Positions 139 through 25,126 of a DNA stretch of 26,570 bases are shown in pieces. This DNA comes from a virus, in the IMG/VR virus record IMGVR_UViG_3300028388_000926, positions 1-26,570 of that record; one strand, given 5' to 3'. The position numbers were made by a program, and so were the translations under genes. The notes under the pieces are model-generated. The model made no database searches. It saw only the letters and a program-made list of their open reading frames with translations, and was not told the DNA's origin. Numbering within the stretch: the first letter of the stretch is position 1; each line of letters starts with the position of its first letter.

Positions 139-246
139 TTATCGGCTCGCAACCCAATGCATTAGCAGAAAGGCAGCAAGGACCGCGAGAGACTCACCCA
201 GTCCGTTTTGCCCGTGCAATTGCATTGCCGCTAGTGAATCAATCAT
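139..246 (-). CDS. 35-aa small membrane peptide, hypothetical
   Basis: This short frame begins with ATG at 246 and overlaps the stop of the preceding gene (239-442) by 8 bp, an arrangement typical of coupled translation in this operon. The protein starts MIDSLAAM and its C-terminal half (about residues 19-34, ESLAVLAAFLLMHWVA) is one hydrophobic segment long enough to sit in a membrane. It is the last gene before the strong terminator at 91-115. Function is unknown; small membrane peptides in phage accessory operons can act in lysis, exclusion or host interference, but nothing here decides between these. It is short enough to be chance, though placement and overlap favour a real gene. Confidence 0.5.
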   Translation of the reverse strand: MIDSLAAMQLHGQNGLGESLAVLAAFLLMHWVASR

Positions 247-442
247 TGCTCGCGCCCTCTGTATCGTAGTCTGTAGACGCGATGACGCGGCCCGCTATTG
301 TCGCGGTATATGTAGATGCATCCGCTAGCAGCGCGTCATATAAACGCAATGCGTCCGCGTATGATTCGAGCGCGTGCCAATAGTCCATTAGAGGCGCATC
401 GTCGCGCCCGCCTACTCTCTTTGACCAAATGACGAAGAACAT
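239..442 (-). CDS. 67-aa hypothetical accessory protein
   Basis: The start chosen is ATG at 442 (MFFVIWSKRVGG), 2 bp after the stop of the upstream gene, with GAGGG about 10 nt upstream. A longer frame to 529 runs inside the neighbour and has an Arg-rich, shadow-like N-terminus, so I rejected it. The middle (LMDYWHALESYADALRLYDA) looks like an amphipathic helix. I recognise no family. It belongs to the five-to-seven gene left operon with stop/start overlaps. Confidence 0.6.
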   Translation of the reverse strand: MFFVIWSKRVGGRDDAPLMDYWHALESYADALRLYDALLADASTYTATIAGRVIASTDYDTEGASND

Positions 443-444
443 AA

Positions 445-828
445 TCAGCACGCCCTCAAATCTTGTAGGGTTTCGAATAGGCCCATTGCGTCGCCTGTGA
501 ATGGGACGCGGGCGGAATCCAAATACCAATACCCGCGCACCTCACCGCTCCCGTCTTCCGATATATCTACCCAAATGTTCGGGCCGCCAAACGCCACAAG
601 TATCTGCACCTGTAGCAATTCGTTGTCACTATTGACCAAATAGCGGATATCTAGCGCGTCCTGTAGATAATCGAGCGCGGTCAAAACTTCCCCCGCCTCA
701 TAGTCATAGTCGAAATAGCCGCCGTCTATTTCTTCTTGTGTGACTTCGATTCCGTTAAAAACCGCGTCCGCGATTTGTTGGCAATGCGATAACAGTCTTT
801 CGTCCGTTGTGGTTTGTAATGCTTTCAT
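445..828 (-). CDS. 127-aa acidic hypothetical protein
   Basis: The start at 828 shares a base with the stop of the upstream gene (TAATG), implying translational coupling. The protein is strongly acidic (EEIDGGYFDYDYEAGE, WVDISEDGSGEV) with a predicted mixed alpha/beta character and no membrane segment. Seven of ten alanine codons are GCG, unlike the mixed alanine codons of the right-hand phage genes. Small acidic phage proteins sometimes mimic DNA or bind host proteins, as anti-restriction proteins do, but no diagnostic motif is visible and this is only a possibility. Confidence 0.75.
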   Translation of the reverse strand: MKALQTTTDERLLSHCQQIADAVFNGIEVTQEEIDGGYFDYDYEAGEVLTALDYLQDALDIRYLVNSDNELLQVQILVAFGGPNIWVDISEDGSGEVRGYWYLDSARVPFTGDAMGLFETLQDLRAC

Positions 829-1343
829 TAGTAAAGGTCCCCGTTTTCTGTGAATTCGTATTCATTGGCCTCGATTGATTCCGCGAATGATTCAAACGAA
901 TAGTAGTATTCGACATCCGCGACAACCGCGCGGAAAATCTCGCCAATGCATTCCGTCAAAACGTCGCAAACTGAATCAGTGCGGCCCGTTTGCTCTATAA
1001 ATTGGCGGATAGGTTGCAAGGCTACTTCGTCCAAATAGTAGCCAGTGAAAGGGCAATTCGCGTTATAGATGACCGCGCTATGTTTTTTGAACCACTCGCG
1101 CGCCTCTTCACCTTCGGTGAGATAGTGCCGCTCCGAATAAGATTCATTGTGTTGCGCCATCATCGAATCGTAACGCCATGCGTAAACGCTAAAACCAAAC
1201 AGGTCCGAAAACTCGCGCAAAACGTCCTCTAGTTCCGAATGCCAAGGGTATTCGGTACGCATCCAAAAGTTTTCGTGCGCGTATTCTTGCGCCTCTTTGG
1301 AAAGCTCATCGAATGTATAAATTTTTGTAGTGACTTCACGCAT
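828..1343 (-). CDS. 171-aa conserved phage-type protein, unknown function
   Basis: The start at 1343 overlaps the stop of the small membrane gene by TAATG, and its own stop overlaps the next start the same way. The N-terminus reads IYTFDELSKEAQEYAHENFW; I recall the pattern (aromatic)-x-F-DELS-x-x-A(Q/K)E-x-A followed by W/Y-rich acidic sequence as a recurring start of phage proteins of unknown function. The rest is rich in E, Y and W and has no catalytic signature I can name. I infer a phage accessory protein expressed with its neighbours. Confidence 0.8.
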   Translation of the reverse strand: MREVTTKIYTFDELSKEAQEYAHENFWMRTEYPWHSELEDVLREFSDLFGFSVYAWRYDSMMAQHNESYSERHYLTEGEEAREWFKKHSAVIYNANCPFTGYYLDEVALQPIRQFIEQTGRTDSVCDVLTECIGEIFRAVVADVEYYYSFESFAESIEANEYEFTENGDLY

Positions 1344-1453
1344 TACTTTTTCCCTCTTTTCTCAAAATACCACTCGCAAAGCGCCCCGATCAGGACGAAA
1401 GGGCCGCCGATCGCGAGCAAATAAACGCCAATAACAAATAGCTTCTCGATCAT
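1343..1453 (-). CDS. 36-aa small membrane protein, hypothetical
   Basis: This gene is joined at both ends: its ATG (1451-1453) overlaps the TGA of the upstream gene as ATGA, and its TAA overlaps the ATG of the 171-aa gene as TAATG. The protein begins MIEKLFVIGVYLLAIGG, has one hydrophobic segment at about residues 4-26, and ends in a basic tail (FEKRGKK), as expected of a single-pass inner-membrane protein with the tail in the cytoplasm. GGAAG and AAGGGG lie just upstream. Function unknown. The double coupling makes it much more likely real than chance. Confidence 0.7.
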   Translation of the reverse strand: MIEKLFVIGVYLLAIGGPFVLIGALCEWYFEKRGKK

Positions 1454-1959
1454 GCTTCCGCCCCTTGCATATATTCGCGGGCAACAATCATCCCAAGAAT
1501 CCACAAACGAATCTCGCGCATTGTGGCCGCATCAATTGACCAAGATTCGGCATTGCCGCCGTCCAAACATAGGCCCGAAGTTTGCAGCGCGCCGTTGTTG
1601 TGGAACCCCTTTTCAGGCGTCCATTTTTCCTCGAAACAAATTGTTTCCGAGTAGTAGCGCGCGCCCGTGAATTGACCCAATGGGCCGTGCGGTATCGTCG
1701 CATCCCAGAATTCCGCGCCCGCTTTGTTTTGTCCCTCTTTATCGCCCCATGTAAGGCACCAATTGCGCCCGTATAAATGCCCGTCAAATAAAACGCGCAC
1801 ATTGAATGTGCGGCCCCTGTCATTGGTGAATGACTTAAAAATCATTCGCCCTTGCAGCCACTCATTGACGAAAGTTTCATCAATGCCCAAAGCGCCCGCG
1901 ATTTGTTCCGCGCTATAACCGCGCGCCCTTGTTTCTGTCATTTGTTGTTGTAGGTCCAT
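1450..1959 (-). CDS. 169-aa protein with N-terminal HTH-like segment
   Basis: Start ATG at 1959 has GAGGG 8-9 nt upstream. Residues about 7-35 (TETRARGYSAEQIAGALGI then DETFVNEWL) read like a helix-turn-helix of the kind found in small phage regulators. The remaining about 130 residues (SFTNDRGRTFNVRVL, ...WCLTWGD..., ...ARYYSETICFEE...) do not match a family I know. It is the second gene of the left operon and stops 42 bp after the start region of the tiny membrane gene's coupling site (ATGA). A DNA-binding role is plausible only from the N-terminus. Confidence 0.75.
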   Translation of the reverse strand: MDLQQQMTETRARGYSAEQIAGALGIDETFVNEWLQGRMIFKSFTNDRGRTFNVRVLFDGHLYGRNWCLTWGDKEGQNKAGAEFWDATIPHGPLGQFTGARYYSETICFEEKWTPEKGFHNNGALQTSGLCLDGGNAESWSIDAATMREIRLWILGMIVAREYMQGAEA

Positions 1960-1979
1960 TTTTAATCCCTCTTAAGTTT

Positions 1980-1995
1980 GGGGCCTTGCGGCCCC
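1980..1995. other. GC-rich hairpin between genes
   Basis: GGGGCC (1980-1985) and GGCCCC (1990-1995) form a perfect 6-bp stem with a 4-nt loop between the stop of the 56-aa gene and the start of the 169-aa gene. On the minus-strand RNA the loop reads GCAA, a stable GNRA tetraloop. There is no good T run on that side (AAACTT follows), so it is more likely an attenuator or RNA-stabilising hairpin than a full terminator. Confidence 0.55.
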
Positions 1996-2001
1996 GTTTG
2001 A

Positions 2002-2172
2002 TTAGCTTTTGATGCGGTGTGCAATGTGCACATTCAAAAAATGCAAAACGCCCGCCATGTTTGGCGCATGGCAAACGGGCGCGCCATGCTTATTAAAGAG
2101 CACATATTGGCTTGGCTCTTTTGTGAGCTCTAAGCCAATTAGCGCCGCCGTTGCTTTCAACTGGTTAAACAT
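2002..2172 (-). CDS. 56-aa hypothetical protein, first gene of left operon
   Basis: I chose ATG at 2172 (MFNQLKATAALIGLEL), which has GAGGG 9 nt upstream; the longer frame to 2247 would start inside the promoter and lacks a ribosome site. The sequence (LELTKEPSQYVLFNKHGAPVCHAPNMAGVLHFLNVHI) contains no motif I can assign. It is the first gene after the promoter at 2220-2247 and is separated from the next by a GC-rich hairpin, so it may be expressed at a different level from the rest. Confidence 0.65.
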   Translation of the reverse strand: MFNQLKATAALIGLELTKEPSQYVLFNKHGAPVCHAPNMAGVLHFLNVHIAHRIKS

Positions 2173-2198
2173 TTTCTTTCCCTCTGTTTCTGTTTCGT

Positions 2199-2220
2199 TG
2201 TCACCTTGTAGGCGGTGACA
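2199..2220. promoter_or_regulatory. Operator-like inverted repeat at promoter start point
   Basis: TGTCACC (2199-2205) and GGTGACA (2214-2220) are perfect 7-bp arms separated by 8 bp. The repeat abuts the -10 box of the leftward promoter and covers its expected start point near 2213, where a bound repressor would block transcription. A related palindrome, GGTAACA-G-TGTTACC, lies at 2312-2326. An alternative is an RNA hairpin in the leader of the 56-aa gene. Confidence 0.55.
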
Positions 2221-2247
2221 CAATAAACAATGCATAAGACGTGCCAA
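2220..2247 (-). promoter_or_regulatory. Leftward promoter of the small-gene operon (sigma70 or sigma54-like)
   Basis: On the minus strand TTGGCA (2247-2242), a 16-bp spacer and TATTGT (2225-2220) give a fair sigma70 promoter, about 45 bp ahead of the first start codon. The same DNA also reads TTGGCACGTCTTATGCA (2247-2231), which is one mismatch from the sigma54 -24/-12 pattern TGGCACG-N4-TTGCA with the correct 10-bp distance between GG and GC. Sequence alone does not decide which reading is used. Confidence 0.5.
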
Positions 2248-2287
2248 TAATAAAAAGGCAATAAAAACAGTAACTTAGGATTTTGCA

Positions 2288-2461
2288 TTAGACTAAAGTA
2301 GCGTTACTTGTGGTAACAGTGTTACCGCCAGTAGCGCGCTTCGGTAACACTTTTCGGATCGATGCGACGGGCGCGGCCCCTTTGGTTTGACCGCGACGGG
2401 CCGCGAGAGGCGCAATTGTTGCGTTAGACCTTGGTCGATTAGACTTTAGTCTATGGTCGAT
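2288..2461. repeat. Cluster of palindromes and direct repeats in gene-free region
   Basis: No gene is supported between 2173 and 2634. This part holds GGTAACA-G-TGTTACC at 2312-2326, a third GGTAACA at 2343-2349, and a GTTAC half-site at 2303. ATTAGACT occurs at 2288-2295 and 2438-2445. The latter begins a TAGACT-TT-AGTCTA palindrome (2440-2453), which is bordered by GGTCGAT at 2433 and 2455. The density and mixture suggest protein-binding sites: operators, a partition or origin site, or a packaging site. I cannot tell which. Confidence 0.6.
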
Positions 2462-2485
2462 GCTGCGGTGCGGGACTGTACCCCT

Positions 2486-2638
2486 ACCGTGGGATAGTAA
2501 ATAACCCCACCGTGGGATAGTAAATAGACTGACCACCGTGGGATACAGCAAGCACCACCACCGTGGGATAGTTAAAATTTTTTTGTGACTACCGTGGGAT
2601 AGTAAATAATTTTTCTACCCCACCATGGGATACATTAA
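2486..2638. repeat. Iteron-like array, six copies of ACCGTGGGATA element
   Basis: Copies begin at 2486, 2509, 2535, 2560, 2591 and 2622, i.e. spaced 23, 26, 25, 31 and 31 bp. Three (2486, 2509, 2591) share ACCGTGGGATAGTAAATA; the last (2622) reads ACCATGGGATACATTAA. Several are preceded by CCC, making a CCCAC-C-GTGGG palindrome in the core. The DNA between copies is AT-rich (for example the T run around 2577-2584). The last copy contains the stop codon of the gene 2635-3429. Such arrays in phages and plasmids are usually binding sites for a replication initiator or a regulator; the role here is inference. Confidence 0.85.
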
Positions 2639-3429
2639 GGAAGCGGACGAACTCGCGTCGTGCGTGACTGGCCGGACGCCAGGTTGAATTGACGAATGCG
2701 CTTGAGCGCCATCGCCTGGAACCGTTTCGAGAATGAGACGGGGAATGTCATGCGAGCAGCCTTTTCGACTGTCTCGAAATAGCGGAAGCGCTTTCTGTAC
2801 TGAGGTGTCTTGCGAACTGCGTAGACAACTGCCTTGAAGCTCTCGCTCCCTATGGCGTCCCGCTTGTAAATGCCAGGGGCCAACATCCCGTAATCGCCAC
2901 GATGGATGACAGGGAAGTACAGCGCCCTCTTTGGGTTCTTGATGTTGCCTTTATAGCCTTGTTCGCCAAAAGCCTGCAAATGCGACAGCATTTGAGTCAC
3001 AACGCTACCGCGAAGGTCGCCATAACTATCAAGGAACTGCGTGTTCTGCGTGGCGGGCACGAAAAACGTATTCCGACCAAAGCCTGGAAACTTGCGAAGG
3101 ATCGCCTTCTCAAACCGCTTATGGTTTCGCGATCCGCCATAGACTTGAGGCGCCAAGTAAACGTCAGGCGCCGTTCCTTTTCCGCCAGTGTCTTCGAGTC
3201 CGACAAGTGCGCTCAGATTGTTCACATTAGCGCGACGCATTACACGCCCAGAGTTGTAGGTGTAAGGGCGTGGGTTCTTGAACACGCGTCGCATGTGTTC
3301 GCCCAGGCGCTTTCGTGCGTCAAAGGCGGTGTCGTTGAGTGCGGTCGATACCGCATACCTAAATAGGTATGGGAACTGCTCGATCAGAGGTTTCGTGCTC
3401 GTCGCACTGATGTTGAACTCAACCGCCAT
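2635..3429 (-). CDS. 264-aa virion-type structural protein, displaced
   Basis: Start ATG at 3429 (MAVEFNISATS) has GGAGG 5 nt upstream; an ATG at 3450 in the same frame lies inside a repeat and lacks a ribosome site. The pattern ALNDTAFDARKRL, then KNPRPYTYNSGRVMRRA, then YLAPQVYGGSRNHKRFEKAI resembles a family of about 200-270 aa proteins I recall from tail, neck and morphogenesis regions of phages. It is basic and soluble with no membrane segment. Its position is odd: far from the head and tail genes, among accessory genes, and bordered on both sides by the CCGTGGGATA element. Both the stop codon and the Shine-Dalgarno sequence lie within copies of that element. Confidence 0.7.
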   Translation of the reverse strand: MAVEFNISATSTKPLIEQFPYLFRYAVSTALNDTAFDARKRLGEHMRRVFKNPRPYTYNSGRVMRRANVNNLSALVGLEDTGGKGTAPDVYLAPQVYGGSRNHKRFEKAILRKFPGFGRNTFFVPATQNTQFLDSYGDLRGSVVTQMLSHLQAFGEQGYKGNIKNPKRALYFPVIHRGDYGMLAPGIYKRDAIGSESFKAVVYAVRKTPQYRKRFRYFETVEKAARMTFPVSFSKRFQAMALKRIRQFNLASGQSRTTRVRPLP

Positions 3430-3436
3430 ATGACCC

Positions 3437-3484
3437 TCCGTGGGATACATTAAGCGAAGTATACCCCACCGTGGGATACATTAA
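3437..3484. repeat. Second cluster, two copies of CCGTGGGATACATTAA
   Basis: Copies at 3437-3453 and 3468-3484 are spaced 31 bp, like the last pairs of the 2486-2638 array. They carry the same ACATTAA end as the copy at 2622. In the copy nearest the gene a single T-to-A change (on the minus strand, CGGTGG to CGGAGG) makes the Shine-Dalgarno sequence of the 264-aa gene. The other copy contains the stop codon of the 73-aa gene 3481-3702. Confidence 0.85.
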
Positions 3485-3702
3485 CCGTCGTCGCCCTCGT
3501 GGATCTTCGCCAGTGTGTTGAGTATTTCCACCTCGTCTGTGACGACGCGATACTCGAAGTTGTGATGGAAGTCAGGGTTGTCGCATGGATGCCATTCTTG
3601 TGTGCTCCCATAGTTGGTTGCATCAGGCTTTACGCGGAACTCTAACTTCTTGCCCTCTGCGAGTGCTCGCAGCGCTTCCGCATGTTCGTGTAGATCAGTC
3701 AC
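3481..3702 (-). CDS. 73-aa small phage protein of unknown function
   Basis: The protein begins HEHAEALRALAEGKKLEFRV and ends with EWHPCDNPDFHHNFEYRVV. This layout (a helix, ALAEGKK, then W and an EYR motif near the C-terminus) is one I recall from many small phage proteins, often uncharacterised. It overlaps the upstream gene by 8 bp and its stop lies inside a copy of the CCGTGGGATA repeat. No enzymatic motif is visible. Confidence 0.7.
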   Translation of the reverse strand: MTDLHEHAEALRALAEGKKLEFRVKPDATNYGSTQEWHPCDNPDFHHNFEYRVVTDEVEILNTLAKIHEGDDG

Positions 3703-4555: not shown

Positions 4556-4602
4556 ATGTTGTATCATCACATTTAACTAGGGGATTTGTGATGATACAAC
4601 AT
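4556..4602. repeat. 16-bp perfect inverted repeat spanning the helicase stop codon
   Basis: ATGTTGTATCATCACA (4556-4571) and TGTGATGATACAACAT (4587-4602) are perfect 16-bp arms with a 15-bp spacer. The right arm lies inside the helicase gene and the stop codon (4577-4579) is in the loop. The AT-rich arms and lack of a T run argue against an ordinary terminator; a recombination, protein-binding or RNA-processing site is possible. Confidence 0.8.
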
Positions 4603-5686
4603 GAAAACCCCACTCCCTTCCCTCGCTCGTATAGACCGGTTCCGTGACGAAATTATCTTGGATGTAGTCGATCATCGACGGGATGAGTTGAGTGTTCTTG
4701 ATGATGTCACGCAACCGCAGCGGAACGATTCCCTGTGGCTCACGACAGCGACTATTCTTGATGTAGACCGGTTGCCTTGCCTGGCGAATTTTCTCCGCCA
4801 CAGCGGCCTTGAGTGCGTCCAGTTCGACTTCCTTCTGCAACTGCTTCGCAACCTCGGCGGCCTCTTCGCTGTACGACTCCCACTCGACCACGTTCACCTC
4901 GGCCTGCCCGTTGACAAAGTTCACCGGCACCTTGTGCCCACGACCGGCCCACACTGGCGAGTCTTCGACTAACCGCCAACGATCCTTGTCCCATCGCGCC
5001 AACGTGCGCTCAATGTCCTTGTCCCACTGCACGTTCACCGACCAGTCGATGTTACCGATCAACGCAGACGCACCTCTGGCGGAACGTCCATCAGACGCCT
5101 TTGACGTGTGGTGCACGATGACCACACACCCCATCGGGTGTAATCGGGTGACAATGTGATCCTCGATCATCTTAATCAGCCGTGACGCCTGCTGATTGTC
5201 ATTCTCCTCAAACTGAAACGCCGTAGCCAACGTATCAAACACGACCATCATTGGCGGGTTTTGCAGCTTCTCCATCCACCGCCCAACCGACTCAACCTGA
5301 CTCACCTCGAATCCCTTCGTCGGCAACGCTAGGATGTTGTGTTTCACCGCCTTACCACGGAACGAGCGGTACGCCTTCATCCGCGCCATGATGTGACCCT
5401 GTGACTCCGAGAACATGACGACATCGCCTGTGCATAGGTCATGGTCCAACCACTGCTCATCGCCCGTCAGACAGGCGCATATGAGGTCGCAGATCAGGTG
5501 TGACTTCCCCGAGTTGCTCGGTCCAAACAACATGCCAATCGATCTGGCCGGAATGAGCCGATTGAGAAACCATTCCGGCATCGCAACCTCCCAGTCCCAG
5601 TAGTCAACCGGCAGGATGTTTTCTGGCTGATTCTCAACAAACTCCTGAAACTCTTCCGCCAGTGCAATCTCTCTATCGATGTTCAT
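4577..5686 (-). CDS. RepA-like replicative helicase (AAA_25 / RecA fold)
   Basis: The 369-aa protein has a Walker A motif FGPSNSGKS at about residues 54-62, a hydrophobic Walker B strand MMVVFDTLA at about 146-154 and a sensor-like strand VVIVHHTSKASDGRSARGAS at about 188-207. This arrangement is that of the RepA/AAA_25 hexameric helicases of plasmids and phages, which unwind DNA at the fork. The last about 100 residues look like a helical linker plus a small C-terminal domain. The start overlaps the primase-like gene by 14 bp, so primase and helicase are made together. An arm of a 16-bp inverted repeat lies in its last codons. Confidence 0.85.
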   Translation of the reverse strand: MNIDREIALAEEFQEFVENQPENILPVDYWDWEVAMPEWFLNRLIPARSIGMLFGPSNSGKSHLICDLICACLTGDEQWLDHDLCTGDVVMFSESQGHIMARMKAYRSFRGKAVKHNILALPTKGFEVSQVESVGRWMEKLQNPPMMVVFDTLATAFQFEENDNQQASRLIKMIEDHIVTRLHPMGCVVIVHHTSKASDGRSARGASALIGNIDWSVNVQWDKDIERTLARWDKDRWRLVEDSPVWAGRGHKVPVNFVNGQAEVNVVEWESYSEEAAEVAKQLQKEVELDALKAAVAEKIRQARQPVYIKNSRCREPQGIVPLRLRDIIKNTQLIPSMIDYIQDNFVTEPVYTSEGREWGFHVVSSQIP

Positions 5687-6197
5687 TGATTAGCCCCTGC
5701 TCACGGATCTGTGCGATCTTCCACGCCCATTCTTTGGGCAATGGCTCCACGCCATTTTTCTGCGCCTTCTGTAAAAGTGCTTGAGCCTTCGCATACTCCG
5801 CGTCAGCCATCGATCCGATGTCCATGATAGTCTGCGCCCAGATGTACGCCTCATAGCCAACCTTGCGCTCCATACGAAGCTGTTTCACCTTCTCTGGCGA
5901 CAACTTCTTCGACTCGATCAGCCCACGCCGCTCAAGTGCTCGCATAATGTCACTGAAATCACATCCTTGGCGACAGCCAAAGATCATGGGTTGTGTGCGC
6001 CCTGGTCTAATCCAGAAGCGATCCTGCCCCCCACAAACCGGACACGGCCCCTTTTTTTCCAGAGTGCCGCCTCTGAGATTTAGTACCTCGGCGAAGATTG
6101 ATGAGTCTCTCGCCCACGATATTTCTGATATTGAGTTCACAAATGCTTCCCTTTTGCTCGTCTTTGTTATTGAACGGGATGACTCTATACCGGCCAT
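5673..6197 (-). CDS. Zinc-ribbon primase-like protein
   Basis: The core CPVCGGQDRFWI (from residue 52) and GCRQGCDF (from residue 74) provide four cysteines (52, 55, 75, 79) in the arrangement of the DnaG/CHC2-type zinc ribbon that reads template DNA. The 174-aa length leaves no room for a Toprim catalytic domain, so this is either a primase accessory domain working with the helicase next door or a reduced primase. The start is uncertain: ATG at 6197 (MAGIESSR) overlaps the preceding gene by 191 bp, while GTG at about 6140 (VNSISEIS) with GGGAAG upstream is an alternative. Confidence 0.75.
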   Translation of the reverse strand: MAGIESSRSITKTSKREAFVNSISEISWARDSSIFAEVLNLRGGTLEKKGPCPVCGGQDRFWIRPGRTQPMIFGCRQGCDFSDIMRALERRGLIESKKLSPEKVKQLRMERKVGYEAYIWAQTIMDIGSMADAEYAKAQALLQKAQKNGVEPLPKEWAWKIAQIREQGLINEHR

Positions 6198-9153: not shown

Positions 9154-9280
9154 CACGCAGCTCCAGTTCCAAACGAATCGACTTGTCTTCTAAGCGATAC
9201 CCTTTCTCGATCAGACCCTTGGCATATGCCCGTAGCATCCGCATGTAGGTCTTCTTCAACTTACGCTTGATCTTCTTCAT
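9137..9280 (-). CDS. 47-aa basic hypothetical protein
   Basis: ATG at 9280 overlaps the stop of the Cro-like gene as ATGA, and GAAGG lies about 9 nt upstream. The N-terminus is highly basic (MKKIKRKLKKTYMRML), the C-terminus acidic (RLELELRDEHKS). It may bind nucleic acid, but the composition is the only hint. Confidence 0.6.
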   Translation of the reverse strand: MKKIKRKLKKTYMRMLRAYAKGLIEKGYRLEDKSIRLELELRDEHKS

Positions 9281-9447
9281 TGCTCTGCCTTCAGCTTGCC
9301 TCGCGTCTCTAACTCGATTTGGGCTTGTCGGGCGTATGGGATAGCGCCCTTTTCTTTCCACAGGTAGATTGTTTGCCTGCTAACGCCAATGGCATCTGCC
9401 AGGTTCTTAATGCTTCCATAGTATTTAATTGTTTCTTCAAGGTTCAT
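9277..9447 (-). CDS. Cro-like helix-turn-helix regulator (56 aa)
   Basis: Start ATG at 9447 has a very strong AAGGAGGAGG ribosome site; longer frames run into the promoter region and were rejected. Residues about 11-40 (GSIKNLADAIGVSRQTIYLW then KEKGAIPYARQ) form a helix-turn-helix of the Cro/YdaS type, in which the second helix GVSRQTIYLWKE reads the operator. It is transcribed away from the exonuclease gene from a shared control region, the standard layout for a regulator that acts on both promoters. No CI-like partner is seen in the window. Confidence 0.85.
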   Translation of the reverse strand: MNLEETIKYYGSIKNLADAIGVSRQTIYLWKEKGAIPYARQAQIELETRGKLKAEQ

Positions 9448-9460
9448 TACCTCCTCCTTA

Positions 9461-9489
9461 TTGACAACTAACTTAACGCCCACTAATCT
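9461..9489 (+). promoter_or_regulatory. Rightward sigma70 promoter for the exonuclease gene
   Basis: TTGACA (9461-9466), a 17-bp spacer and TAATCT (9484-9489) match the sigma70 consensus, perfect in the -35 box and four of six in the -10. Transcription would begin near 9496 and give a leader of about 28 nt before the ATG at 9524, which has AGGA 10 nt upstream. Confidence 0.75.
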
Positions 9490-9498
9490 GGGTGTCAA
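9470..9498 (-). promoter_or_regulatory. Leftward sigma70 promoter for the Cro-like gene
   Basis: On the minus strand TTGACA (9498-9493), a 17-bp spacer and TAAGTT (9475-9470) form a promoter that overlaps the rightward one almost completely. The two TTGACA boxes are an inverted pair, and CCCA-N6-TGGG (9479-9492) lies between them as a possible operator. RNA polymerase can occupy only one of the two promoters at a time. Confidence 0.65.
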
Positions 9499-9523
9499 GT
9501 AAATAGACATAGGAAAACTACAA

Positions 9524-10465
9524 ATGGTTGGGAAACTTTCTGATGATCGCCTGATGTCAGGCTCACGCATTCCGGTGCTGTACTGTTGGCTCATCGCCAA
9601 GGAAGCGCACAAATACTCCACGCCAAATGACGAACTGCGTCGCTCGATTGCAGCCAAGAATGGCGAATATGAGCGCGATAACTCGCACAGCGAACCGGCC
9701 TACATGGGCAACCTGTTCGAGCCTGCCATCGTCGCTGACGTATGCGACCACCTCGGCTTACCAGAAGCAGAGCAATCGCCATCGGTCATCGTTTCGCCAG
9801 ACGGAAGTTGGCAGTGTTCGCTTGACGGCCTTGTGCGCCTAGAGCGGCCCGTCACTATCTTTGCCGACGATACAGTTGAGATTGAAGGCGGCCTGGCGTC
9901 TATCACCTTAGACGGCAACATCCCCATTGAGTGTAAGACCACCGAAGCGCACTACACCGGCGAGACGCCTCTGTTCCGTGGCCCAGTGCAACTCCAGATG
10001 CAGATGATGGCTGTGGACGCCAAGTTTGGCATTCTCGCCACAGTGCATCGCGGCAACCTGCGTCACTACAAGGTCTACAAGTGCGATCCTGTGATGCAAC
10101 AGGTGCTTGGCGATCTAGCCCTCGACTTTCGTGATCGGGTCGCAGAAGAGCGCTTTTATCCGCCAGTGAATGTCGATGATTGCACCAAGACTCATCCTGG
10201 CGGAAACGAAGAGCCTGTCGAGCTACATGAACTGCAAGACAAGGTTGAACAGCTTGTGAGCCTGCGCGCACAGATCAAGGACATTGAAGACGCCATCGAG
10301 TCATTGCAGACCGACATCATGTCCGAGATGAAGGACAATGAGGTTGCGATGGTCGGCGAATACAAGGTGAAGTGGCCTACGCGTCACTACAAGGCTCAAC
10401 CGGAAAAGGTGACTCCCGCCAAGGATGCGCGGACTATCCGGTTGAAATCCTTGCAAATACGATGA
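9524..10465 (+). CDS. YqaJ / lambda-type recombination exonuclease
   Basis: This 313-aa protein is the only supported plus-strand gene. It has the PD-(D/E)XK core of lambda-exonuclease/YqaJ proteins: GNLFEPAIV with Glu66, CSLDGLV with Asp101, IECKTT giving Glu136-x-Lys138, and the following QLQMQM helix. These enzymes degrade the 5' strand of a DNA end so that an annealing protein, here probably the Sak4-like protein, can pair the exposed strand. Residues about 232-270 form a coiled coil (LHELQDKVEQLVSLRAQIKD), which is beyond the minimal nuclease. It has its own promoter at 9461-9489 and ends at a terminator at 10535-10559. Confidence 0.85.
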   Translation: MVGKLSDDRLMSGSRIPVLYCWLIAKEAHKYSTPNDELRRSIAAKNGEYERDNSHSEPAYMGNLFEPAIVADVCDHLGLPEAEQSPSVIVSPDGSWQCSLDGLVRLERPVTIFADDTVEIEGGLASITLDGNIPIECKTTEAHYTGETPLFRGPVQLQMQMMAVDAKFGILATVHRGNLRHYKVYKCDPVMQQVLGDLALDFRDRVAEERFYPPVNVDDCTKTHPGGNEEPVELHELQDKVEQLVSLRAQIKDIEDAIESLQTDIMSEMKDNEVAMVGEYKVKWPTRHYKAQPEKVTPAKDARTIRLKSLQIR

Positions 10466-23139: not shown

Positions 23140-23757
23140 TCAGCTCCTTACAAACACAATATCCCGATGGATTCTGGCCCTTATTGTATACCCTATAGAT
23201 TCCAAAAGGTTGATCGTATCTTCATCAGGATGACCATAGCGCTTGCCGATTCCTTTCAGCTCTAGGCAGATAACCGGCCAAGATCGCTTGATTGTTTCCA
23301 TTGCGCCAAGAATCGCGAAATGCTCGAAGCCCTCGACGTCAAGCTGCAAGAAGTCCACATCGTCATACCCAAATCGGTCTATTGAGACGATCTTGAATTC
23401 ATCGCCTTCTTTGATTTGATGCGCGCCAATGTTCTTAGGATCAATGTGATCCATGGCTCCAGATCCATATTTCTCGCCAAGCGCAAAGTTATGAATCTCG
23501 ATGTTGTCGATATCTCCGACGTTTGCGACGAGTGCTTCGTGATTAAGCGCGTCCGGCTCAAACGTGACCACAGAATCAAAGTGCTTAGATAGCTCTTTCG
23601 GCCATATGCCAACATTGCCACCGGCTTGAACGACCCGCCTCTTCTGCTTGCATAGCGGAAGCATGTCTTTTAGATCGTTAACCTCGCGCAGGATGATCGA
23701 CAGTGCGACCTCATCCACATCTGGCACCCACCATCCGTTTCTACTAGTAAGGGACAT
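23140..23757 (-). CDS. FkbM-family methyltransferase
   Basis: Start ATG at 23757 (MSLTSRNGWWVP) has GGGAG about 8 nt upstream; the longer frame begins inside the glycosyltransferase gene. VVQAGGNVGIWP is the SAM-binding loop. FEPDALNHEAL follows, then DVDFLQLDVEGFEHFAILGA, the FkbM signature with the LDVEG(F/Y)E motif. FkbM enzymes O-methylate sugars and related substrates. It overlaps the upstream glycosyltransferase by 14 bp, so the two are probably made and act together, for example on a surface sugar of host or virion. Confidence 0.85.
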   Translation of the reverse strand: MSLTSRNGWWVPDVDEVALSIILREVNDLKDMLPLCKQKRRVVQAGGNVGIWPKELSKHFDSVVTFEPDALNHEALVANVGDIDNIEIHNFALGEKYGSGAMDHIDPKNIGAHQIKEGDEFKIVSIDRFGYDDVDFLQLDVEGFEHFAILGAMETIKRSWPVICLELKGIGKRYGHPDEDTINLLESIGYTIRARIHRDIVFVRS

Positions 23758-24334
23758 CTCTTTGCTCCCAGGGTCTTGGCTTGCCATGAAAGAACACAAC
23801 GCTCGCATCTTCTATGGGATAGCCTTTCTGAATATGTGCCTTATAGGATACGACATCACTGATGGCGTCCTGTATATAAACCACATCGTCTACGTTTTGC
23901 TCAATCCAACCTTGATCGCCATTAGGATGCGAGAAATCTGGGTATGCACTGAACTGATCCCACAGATAGGTCATATCGCCAGACCAATACATAATCGATG
24001 ATTGCATCGCATGTGGATCACGCTCACCACGATAAACGTCGCGCAATATAGCAAATTTGCTATTGCCGATAAGATCAACCCAGTGAGAGATGTCGCCACA
24101 GATAACCGTGTCCAAGTCCATATATAGACACGGCCCTTGTATCTTAAACAGCTCCATCTTTGCCCACCAACCAGGATAGGTCTTCTCCAGTGTAATGCGA
24201 GTGCATTGCGGGCTTGAGTCGGTTAGGCACACAAACTCGCAACCAGGCAGATATCTTTCCGCCATGTCACGAAGTTTGTGCACATGCTCTACTGTGTATT
24301 CCCGACCAGATCGAAGGACGGTGACAAATTTCAC
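23744..24334 (-). CDS. Glycosyltransferase, GT-A type with DxD motif
   Basis: The 196-aa protein has CLYMDLDTVICGD with the DLD metal and nucleotide-sugar binding motif at about residues 73-75. An N-terminal strand (FVTVLRSGREYTVEHVHKLR) and a C-terminal VVFFHGKPRPWE, in which His is the usual second metal ligand, complete the pattern of small GT8/GT-A-like enzymes. It is followed with 14-bp overlap by the FkbM methyltransferase. Likely substrates (capsid, tail, host lipopolysaccharide) cannot be told from sequence. Confidence 0.83.
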   Translation of the reverse strand: MKFVTVLRSGREYTVEHVHKLRDMAERYLPGCEFVCLTDSSPQCTRITLEKTYPGWWAKMELFKIQGPCLYMDLDTVICGDISHWVDLIGNSKFAILRDVYRGERDPHAMQSSIMYWSGDMTYLWDQFSAYPDFSHPNGDQGWIEQNVDDVVYIQDAISDVVSYKAHIQKGYPIEDASVVFFHGKPRPWEQRDVPY

Positions 24335-24339
24335 GAAGG

Positions 24340-24561
24340 CTACTTCCTTTTGTACGTTCGCCGCGTAGTTACAGTCTGCTCAGGCTCACTCGTCTCAAGT
24401 CCCACAGAGCGGTTAGTAGTCTTGAGTGCAGGCTCCTTATATAACTTTGCCTTGCCCCTGTCGATCAACGTGAATCCGTCAACTTCGCTTAACTCCAAGA
24501 CTTCGCCTGGCTCACGAGCCTGCTTGTCCCAAATTACGCCACGGGTTAGCTCTACTTTCAT
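24340..24561 (-). CDS. 73-aa small protein near head genes
   Basis: The first 40 residues (VELTRGVIWDKQAREPGEVL, then ELSEVDGFTLIDRGKAKLY) match a layout I recall from small proteins of head-gene regions: a beta hairpin with PGEV(L/I)E(L/V)SE followed by LI-x-RGKA. The C-terminus is Thr/Arg rich and probably disordered. It overlaps the upstream stop as ATGA. Function unknown; it may be a minor head component. Confidence 0.7.
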   Translation of the reverse strand: MKVELTRGVIWDKQAREPGEVLELSEVDGFTLIDRGKAKLYKEPALKTTNRSVGLETSEPEQTVTTRRTYKRK

Positions 24562-25088
24562 TGGTGTATCTCCTTCAGTTGTCCAGATACAAAATAGATT
24601 CGCTCTGGATGATTCAACGAATCTATGAACTCTTTTAGTCTACCAAGATCGGCATTGCAATGGTTATGTCGCTGCATCTCTTTGCACTGTGGGCCTTCCC
24701 ACCAGTATTCACGAGTGTCGCTCTTGTCGTACTGATTCATGCCGCAAACGTAGATTGTCTCGAACCCCATGTAATCCGCCGCGTAAATCGCGCGTTGCCC
24801 TGAGTATCCCATGGACGGCCAGATGCCCGCATGGATGGTGCGACCGGTATCGAACTTATTGAGGTGAGTAATGTATTTGCAGTCTTTGATAGGTTCTACC
24901 AACGGCCACATGTGGCGGTCGCTGAAGACAATGTAATCGCATGGAAGGATCAAGCTGTGCTGATTCACGCCAATCAATACATCGACGTCCGGCATCGCTC
25001 TAAGGTCATAAGGTAGTGACGTTCCGCCGCATAAGATGGCGCATGTCTGCCCCTGATGTCTGTTCTTGTATTGCTCTATCGTTTCCAT
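24558..25088 (-). CDS. MptE-like / DUF115-type Rossmann protein
   Basis: I take ATG at 25088 (METIEQYKNRHQGQTCAIL); an upstream ATG at 25118 would place the terminator stem inside the reading frame. AILCGGTSLPYDL, then DVLIGVNQHSLILPCDYIVF and SDRHMW resemble the MptE/DUF115-like fold (CGxGPSL...GVN...DY...D), which in other proteins works in sugar-nucleotide or pterin transfer and in flagellin glycosylation loci. With the next genes it makes a probable sugar-modification cassette. The start codon follows the terminator T run directly and has no clear ribosome site. Confidence 0.75.
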   Translation of the reverse strand: METIEQYKNRHQGQTCAILCGGTSLPYDLRAMPDVDVLIGVNQHSLILPCDYIVFSDRHMWPLVEPIKDCKYITHLNKFDTGRTIHAGIWPSMGYSGQRAIYAADYMGFETIYVCGMNQYDKSDTREYWWEGPQCKEMQRHNHCNADLGRLKEFIDSLNHPERIYFVSGQLKEIHQ

Positions 25089-25110
25089 AAAAAAGGGGGC
25101 CGAAGCCCCC
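25089..25110 (-). terminator. Terminator after the capsid gene
   Basis: On the minus strand GGGGGC-TTCG-GCCCCC (stem 25095-25100/25105-25110, extended by A-T pairs) is followed by six T residues. It begins 16 bp after the capsid stop at 25127. Such a terminator lets capsid mRNA outnumber that of downstream genes, which then depend on readthrough or on a promoter I could not locate. Confidence 0.9.
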
Positions 25111-25126
25111 TTCTCCATCTAGGCTA

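Follow-up and report, generated by a model that had tools for sequence, protein, structure and literature searches.

A near-constant ten-base repeat running one way behind a tail-completion-type gene of uncultured siphophages: a candidate transcription roadblock

What do eight copies of one short repeat do when they enclose a single phage gene, and how did that gene come to lie between them? The window, i.e. the whole stretch of 26,570 bases of a virus record that was analysed, has the gene content of a lambda-like siphophage, and its capsid, tail, lysis, recombination and replication genes lie mostly on the minus strand. An initial annotation had described the repeats as an array of protein-binding sites into which a gene cassette had entered by recombination between copies, and had offered a replication origin, a phage-specific regulatory element or a recombination hot spot as possible roles. 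The features needed for the argument are the following.

239..2172, minus strand: small accessory genes of the right end (2002-2172, 1450-1959, 828-1343, 445-828, 239-529)
2173..2486, minus strand: non-coding segment past the array, about 310 bp, with palindromes and a weak sigma70-like promoter (TTGGCA at 2247, TATTGT at 2220) facing the right-end genes
2487..2632, minus strand: main array, six copies, in sense TATCCCACGG or TATCCCATGG, starting 3 bp past the stop codon of gene Z
2635..3429, minus strand: gene Z, gpZ-type tail-completion (minor tail) protein, 264 aa (phrog_1924, E=7e-44)
3438-3447 and 3469-3478, minus strand: two upstream copies between the 73-aa gene and Z, overlapping the Z Shine-Dalgarno sequence and the stop region of the 73-aa gene
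3481..3702, minus strand: 73-aa gene upstream of Z, its stop codon inside an element copy; members of its homologous cluster (c45) occupy the same place in other phages with the window's type of Z
4577..6197, minus strand: replication genes, a RepA-like AAA_25 helicase (4577-5686) and a Zn-ribbon primase (5673-6197)

The element reads CC[G/A]TGGGATA on the plus strand and TATCCCA[C/T]GG on the coding minus strand. Its eight copies all run in a single direction and form two clusters flanking the 264-aa gene, as had been described, with cores starting at 2487, 2510, 2536, 2561, 2592, 2623, 3438 and 3469 (the positions given earlier were one lower, the preceding base having been counted in). Exact CCGTGGGATA is found seven times in the window, always on the plus strand and nowhere outside the two clusters, and the copy at 2623, CCATGGGATA, carries one mismatch. 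When up to two mismatches were allowed 29 matches were obtained, as compared to a mean of 16.4 in shuffled sequence, and none of 100 shuffles reached 29. The finer points of the initial annotation also held: ACATTAA is common to the copies at 2623, 3438 and 3469, and a spacing of 31 bp occurs on both sides of the gene (2561-2592, 2592-2623 and 3438-3469). Likewise the element supplies two stop codons and one Shine-Dalgarno sequence. Read on the minus strand, TTAATG of copy 2623 contains the stop codon of the 264-aa gene and TTAATG of copy 3469 that of the 73-aa gene, and copy 3438, which is ACGGAGGGTCATATG on this strand, forms the Shine-Dalgarno sequence ahead of the 264-aa gene.

The assignment of this gene to the virion genes proved to be right. 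The phrog_1924 profile (E=7e-44) covers residues 24-240 of the protein, and all eight relatives tested match it too. One relative has a weak Minor_tail_Z hit under the Pfam cut-off. The gene, called Z here, thus belongs to a minor tail family, like lambda gpZ and other tail-completion proteins; unlike lambda gpZ it lies outside the tail module at the right end of the genome, and in relatives having no array it adjoins cos. An early structure model from six sequences was poor (pLDDT 46), and one from 47 sequences reached a pLDDT of 88.9. The predicted fold has no convincing match in the PDB (best E-value 4, VIA Z not above 4.0); among the BFVD rows are names of tail components and of HK97 gp10. 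The phrog_1924 family also includes the last gene of Pseudomonas phage MD8, and a member precedes terS in Paracoccus phage Pben1 and Sinorhizobium phage phi3LM21. Among the accessory genes to the right of the array, the four at 2002-2172, 1450-1959, 828-1343 and 445-828 gave no Pfam match. Elsewhere in the window, genes at 23140-25118 (minus strand) resemble by eye an FkbM-type methyltransferase and a glycosyltransferase, which would be unusual at this place between capsid and head-tail genes. A Cro-like helix-turn-helix gene, a possible regulator, is found at 9277-9567 (minus strand), and beside it a RecE-like exonuclease gene at 9524-10465 (plus strand) has the opposite orientation to the other genes.

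A pattern scan of IMG/VR yielded 64 loci with the element, where about one is expected by chance according to our own estimate. With the window included, CCGTGGGATA lies opposite the majority coding strand in 64 of 65 contigs, so that TATCCCACGG is the coding direction; the extended unit in this direction is (TTTA or GG)C-TATCCCACGG. In some phages it forms 11-bp tandem runs of up to 15 copies. Within arrays appreciable variation is confined to positions 4, 8 and 10. In 811 kb of related sequence 351 exact copies were counted in the coding direction and none in antisense, random permutations of the motif giving a mean of 0.5 copies. Isolated copies were sense in 32 cases and antisense in one, and 19 whole records held no antisense copy. 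The same element is common to phages of 38-56% GC and of three replication types, and the helicase and primase of the window differ from those of most array phages.

Protein clustering placed a gene of one cluster (c0) before the array in 52 contigs and a gene of a related cluster (c27, the window's type) in six. Among the matches listed, 83 loci have at least three copies and 78 of these have Z, an association which, the loci having first been picked by motif, is strictly shown for exact and near-exact motifs; the concern is lowered because arrays of the variant CTATCCCACGA were recovered by protein search. As to the five loci which have no Z, four start at most 141 bp from a contig end, and the fifth (L375) looks unrelated. 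We regard locus L037, and most loci with two copies and no Z, as chance matches, since by our own estimate about one (strict pattern) to ten (relaxed) are expected. A DNA search of named phages gave no array, and the open papers searched for the motif gave unrelated primer-like matches only, with no description of the element. Host sequences were likewise discarded: out of 61 stretches with the element all those read in detail were unrelated, with no recognisable prophage. The match in LSUCC0115 is a coding repeat and the other host stretches read are minisatellites. Planctomycete contigs (L126, L104, L091, L110 and others) hold the same ten bases within an unrelated intergenic repeat, GACAGGCTGGAAGCC-TATCCCACGG.

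Some further occurrences were seen on the way. In L368 (6958 and 6969, on the strand read) and L400 (6455 and 6466) a tandem pair of elements lies about 42 bp past the major capsid gene, a second gene-end site. An in-gene copy in the helicases of L035 and L048 gives LLSHGYL where most others have LLDQGYL or similar, as if the motif had been forced into coding sequence. In array phages (L011, L017, L028, L042 and others) the accessory region of the right end often holds genes for GP88 (PF17338) or DUF7227.

The position of the array in the genome can be read from contig ends. When the small terminase was used as query, 80 contigs were found, and about half of them begin 46-126 bp before terS, often at the identical base within groups (GGGATTTCGC... 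or GGTAATTCGC...). Together with the large terminase, which is of the gpA type, these starts point to a lambda-like cos about 110 bp ahead of terS. In contigs holding both, the array is roughly 2-4 kb away from this predicted cos, which would put it inside the right end of the genome. The initial annotation had proposed to look in relatives for an uninterrupted array, and an "empty site" of a kind was indeed found: in relatives with the same terS and no array, Z lies about 0.1-0.8 kb from cos with zero to two small genes between, and this compact order recurs in Roseobacter phages CRP-821 and CRP-406. As observations on the terminase side, the contig starts of L279-L358 upstream of terS give a direct reading of cos (GGGATTTCGC.., GGTAATTCGCGAGCGC.., GGTAGTCGCGCGCC.., about 110 bp ahead). 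The small terminase of most array phages (L028, L018, L063 and others) appears by eye too short for the N-terminal helix-turn-helix of Nu1 and commonly ends in KRKRVGRPKK, which is AT-hook-like; that of L015 has a longer, Nu1-like form with a weak Pfam hit.

How the array is inherited was read from three trees. In the Z tree the array phages form two pure groups, of 18 and 6 rows, split by rows without array, and two changes are forced. The large terminase tree requires at least four changes of array status, and in it L024, a phage with the window's type of Z, nests among phages with Z of the other cluster; the helicase tree has no-array phages among array phages. Judged from these trees array presence tracks the Z lineage and not terminase or helicase, and array and Z are normally inherited together, part of which can be explained by linkage through adjacency. 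The case of L024 implies one of two events, an exchange of Z that left the array in place or a transfer of the array to a second Z. Because two Z lineages carry the same array while the terminase of L024 nests with the other type, Z was probably swapped at least once with the array retained. The proposed entry of a cassette by recombination between copies therefore fares unevenly. In nearly every case the array and the gene are fixed together (78 of 83 loci with at least three copies), which the initial annotation itself had named as a refutation, and one probable exchange of Z in place gives it partial support.

The copies prefer gene ends. Among intergenic copies leading a cluster, 64 of 109 start at most 15 bp after a stop codon, as compared to 10% of random intergenic positions, gene calls following our simple longest-ORF rule. 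Behind Z the array starts at a median of about 6 bp, usually 1-15 bp, after the stop codon. In L386, where the accessory genes are oriented convergently with Z, the motif still runs in the direction of Z; the element therefore goes with the unit upstream of it rather than with the one downstream. The maximum for copy spacing lies at 10.5 bp (R=0.29, n=164, a statistic inflated by kinship as related contigs are not independent), common spacings being 11, 21-24 and 31 bp. A non-coding stretch of about 100-500 bp follows the array, and in many contigs it contains a sigma70-like promoter in sense orientation. Such a promoter was better than 95% of random windows in 12 of 34 contigs, a figure raised by the AT-richness of intergenic segments and again by kinship. 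The first accessory genes after the array differ from phage to phage. Replacement of an intrinsic terminator by the array received no support: terminator-like hairpins follow Z in 2 of 35 array regions and in 0 of 32 no-array regions, which is no difference.

From the sequence evidence our preferred reading, to which we would assign a probability of about 0.4, is that the copies are putative binding sites for a factor acting one way as a transcription roadblock or terminator at the ends of units, chiefly behind Z. A sequence-specific protein would bind the copies as DNA, and its binding would halt RNA polymerase arriving from Z, in one direction only. This would serve to keep the accessory genes of the right end apart from Z, which is a structural gene placed at the far end of the early and replication region. 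The factor may be host-encoded, which is favoured because the first accessory genes vary between phages; less likely it is Z itself. A roadblock is supported by the asymmetry of the sites, nearly all of which run in the coding direction; most start no more than 15 bp from a stop codon, they are densest behind Z, and they go along with Z between phages. Against it, inspection of the accessory genes revealed no shared candidate for a cognate DNA-binding protein, and no integrase or repressor system was identified. Repressor sites usually diverge along with their repressor; the present motif hardly changes between very different phages, which also counts against a roadblock. The earlier description as protein-binding sites is plausible in view of the asymmetric motif and a spacing maximum such as DNA binding would be expected to give, the binding itself being putative; of the roles offered, a phage-specific regulatory element is the best reading of the array.

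Other explanations were weighed against this roadblock. Origin iterons of the lambda and P4 type are direct repeats of 10-20 bp with helical spacing beside AT-rich DNA. The array resembles them in all three respects, with phasing at 11, 21-24 and 31 bp, a following segment AT-richer than the genome in 27 of 34 contigs, words of the GGTCAAA and ATTTTTG type therein, and replication genes just upstream. That it consists of initiator-bound iterons beside the opening DNA of an origin is nevertheless distinctly unlikely. Six long contigs show a monotone GC skew across the array, and the skew change looked for in the window was not seen either. Three unrelated replication modules carry the same motif, which is thus not tied to one helicase or primase, and relatives with a closely related helicase/primase lack the array, their helicase nesting among those of array phages; the exact core was absent from the whole records searched of two of them (21 and 11 kb). 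Moreover, copies lie at gene ends and inside genes, always in sense, and 28% of random windows are as AT-rich as the peaks. A part in the packaging site, cos or pac, had its appeal since Z adjoins cos in the relatives MD8, Pben1 and phi3LM21 and the array sits where cos was first expected; it is largely refuted by contig ends clustering 46-126 bp before terS and not at the array, roughly 2-4 kb off, and is barely credible. Very improbable, too, is a polar recombination or end-protection signal of the Chi kind, recognised by an enzyme that comes in at the right cos end. The copies do have one orientation genome-wide, pointing to the right end of the linear genome, and the region of Z and array is exchanged between phages, but tandem ten-base sites are unlike known Chi sites, six host genomes examined had no enriched strand-biased motif, and a clustering of starts at gene ends is not needed for Chi.

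That the element acts in RNA, as a sense 3'-UTR signal for an RNA-binding protein, a complementary RNA or Rho in termination, decay or translation, is unlikely, although several observations suit it: copies are in sense only and start directly past stop codons, one overlaps the Shine-Dalgarno sequence of Z, and at positions 4 and 8 the change tolerated is from C to T, as G-U wobble would permit. Arrays behind the more common type of Z are C-rich and no more structured than shuffles (z -0.7 to +2.3), which would also agree with such a signal. Arrays of the window's type are mostly structured (z -4.1, -3.7, -2.9 and +0.7); no structure shared by both types was found, and the array had no match in Rfam. 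The spacing maximum close to the helical repeat also argues against RNA, and Rho would not need an exact 10-mer. A hairpin promoter or RNA structure built on the palindrome CCCA-CGG-TGGG was dropped as this is confined to the window's lineage. Functionless simple repeats, expanded and propagated by copying and retained through linkage to Z, would account for the 11-bp tandem runs of up to 15 copies, which resemble repeat expansion. They are improbable given a core that hardly varies, with few changes tolerated, in phages of 38-56% GC, the strict strand bias of isolated copies (32 against 1), the preference for gene ends, and two Z lineages with an identical motif.

The preferred roadblock reading rests in part on likeness to a known system, the one-direction layout at gene ends being that of the stoperators of Cluster A mycobacteriophages such as L5 and Bxb1. 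Stoperators are asymmetric sites of a single orientation that lie between genes or overlap their ends, and a repressor bound to them stops RNA polymerase during elongation, in one direction only (PMC9283540, PMC3029335). The present element likewise is short, is intergenic or overlaps gene ends (64 of 109 within 15 bp after a stop codon), keeps a single orientation relative to transcription (351 against 0, and the direction of Z in L386), and also occurs as scattered single copies. Different from the stoperators are the dense arrays behind one gene and a core constant across diverse phages, and no repressor gene was found among the accessory genes inspected. We know of no stoperators in tandem arrays of up to 15 copies. 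T4-type phages have PeSL regulatory cassettes, repeated intergenic signals at gene borders in variable regions. Intergenic repeats are also reported from halovirus HF2 (PMC8707807). Both resemble the element as repeated signals at gene borders in variable regions, and it differs from them in that the repeat itself has no stem-loop or promoter and the array is fixed to one gene family. The nearest cultured relatives are reported to be probably strictly lytic, a further difference from L5 and Bxb1 (PMC12629253).

A fuller version, which we regard as doubtful, is that a near-constant 10-bp polar array, read by a host factor common to the hosts, ends transcription behind a displaced structural gene in widespread uncultured aquatic siphophages, a one-way terminator made of repeats and not of a hairpin. 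The step we infer here is the one-way stop by a bound factor at the end of the Z unit. Such a design is known, in outline only, from some mycobacterial viruses. If the one-way stop is true, the array would be a compact polar roadblock and a pointer to a DNA-binding factor. The element, undescribed in the open papers searched, is strict enough to be searched for by eye, and may give a handle on how a late structural gene is kept apart from its neighbours and on the exchange of genome-end modules.
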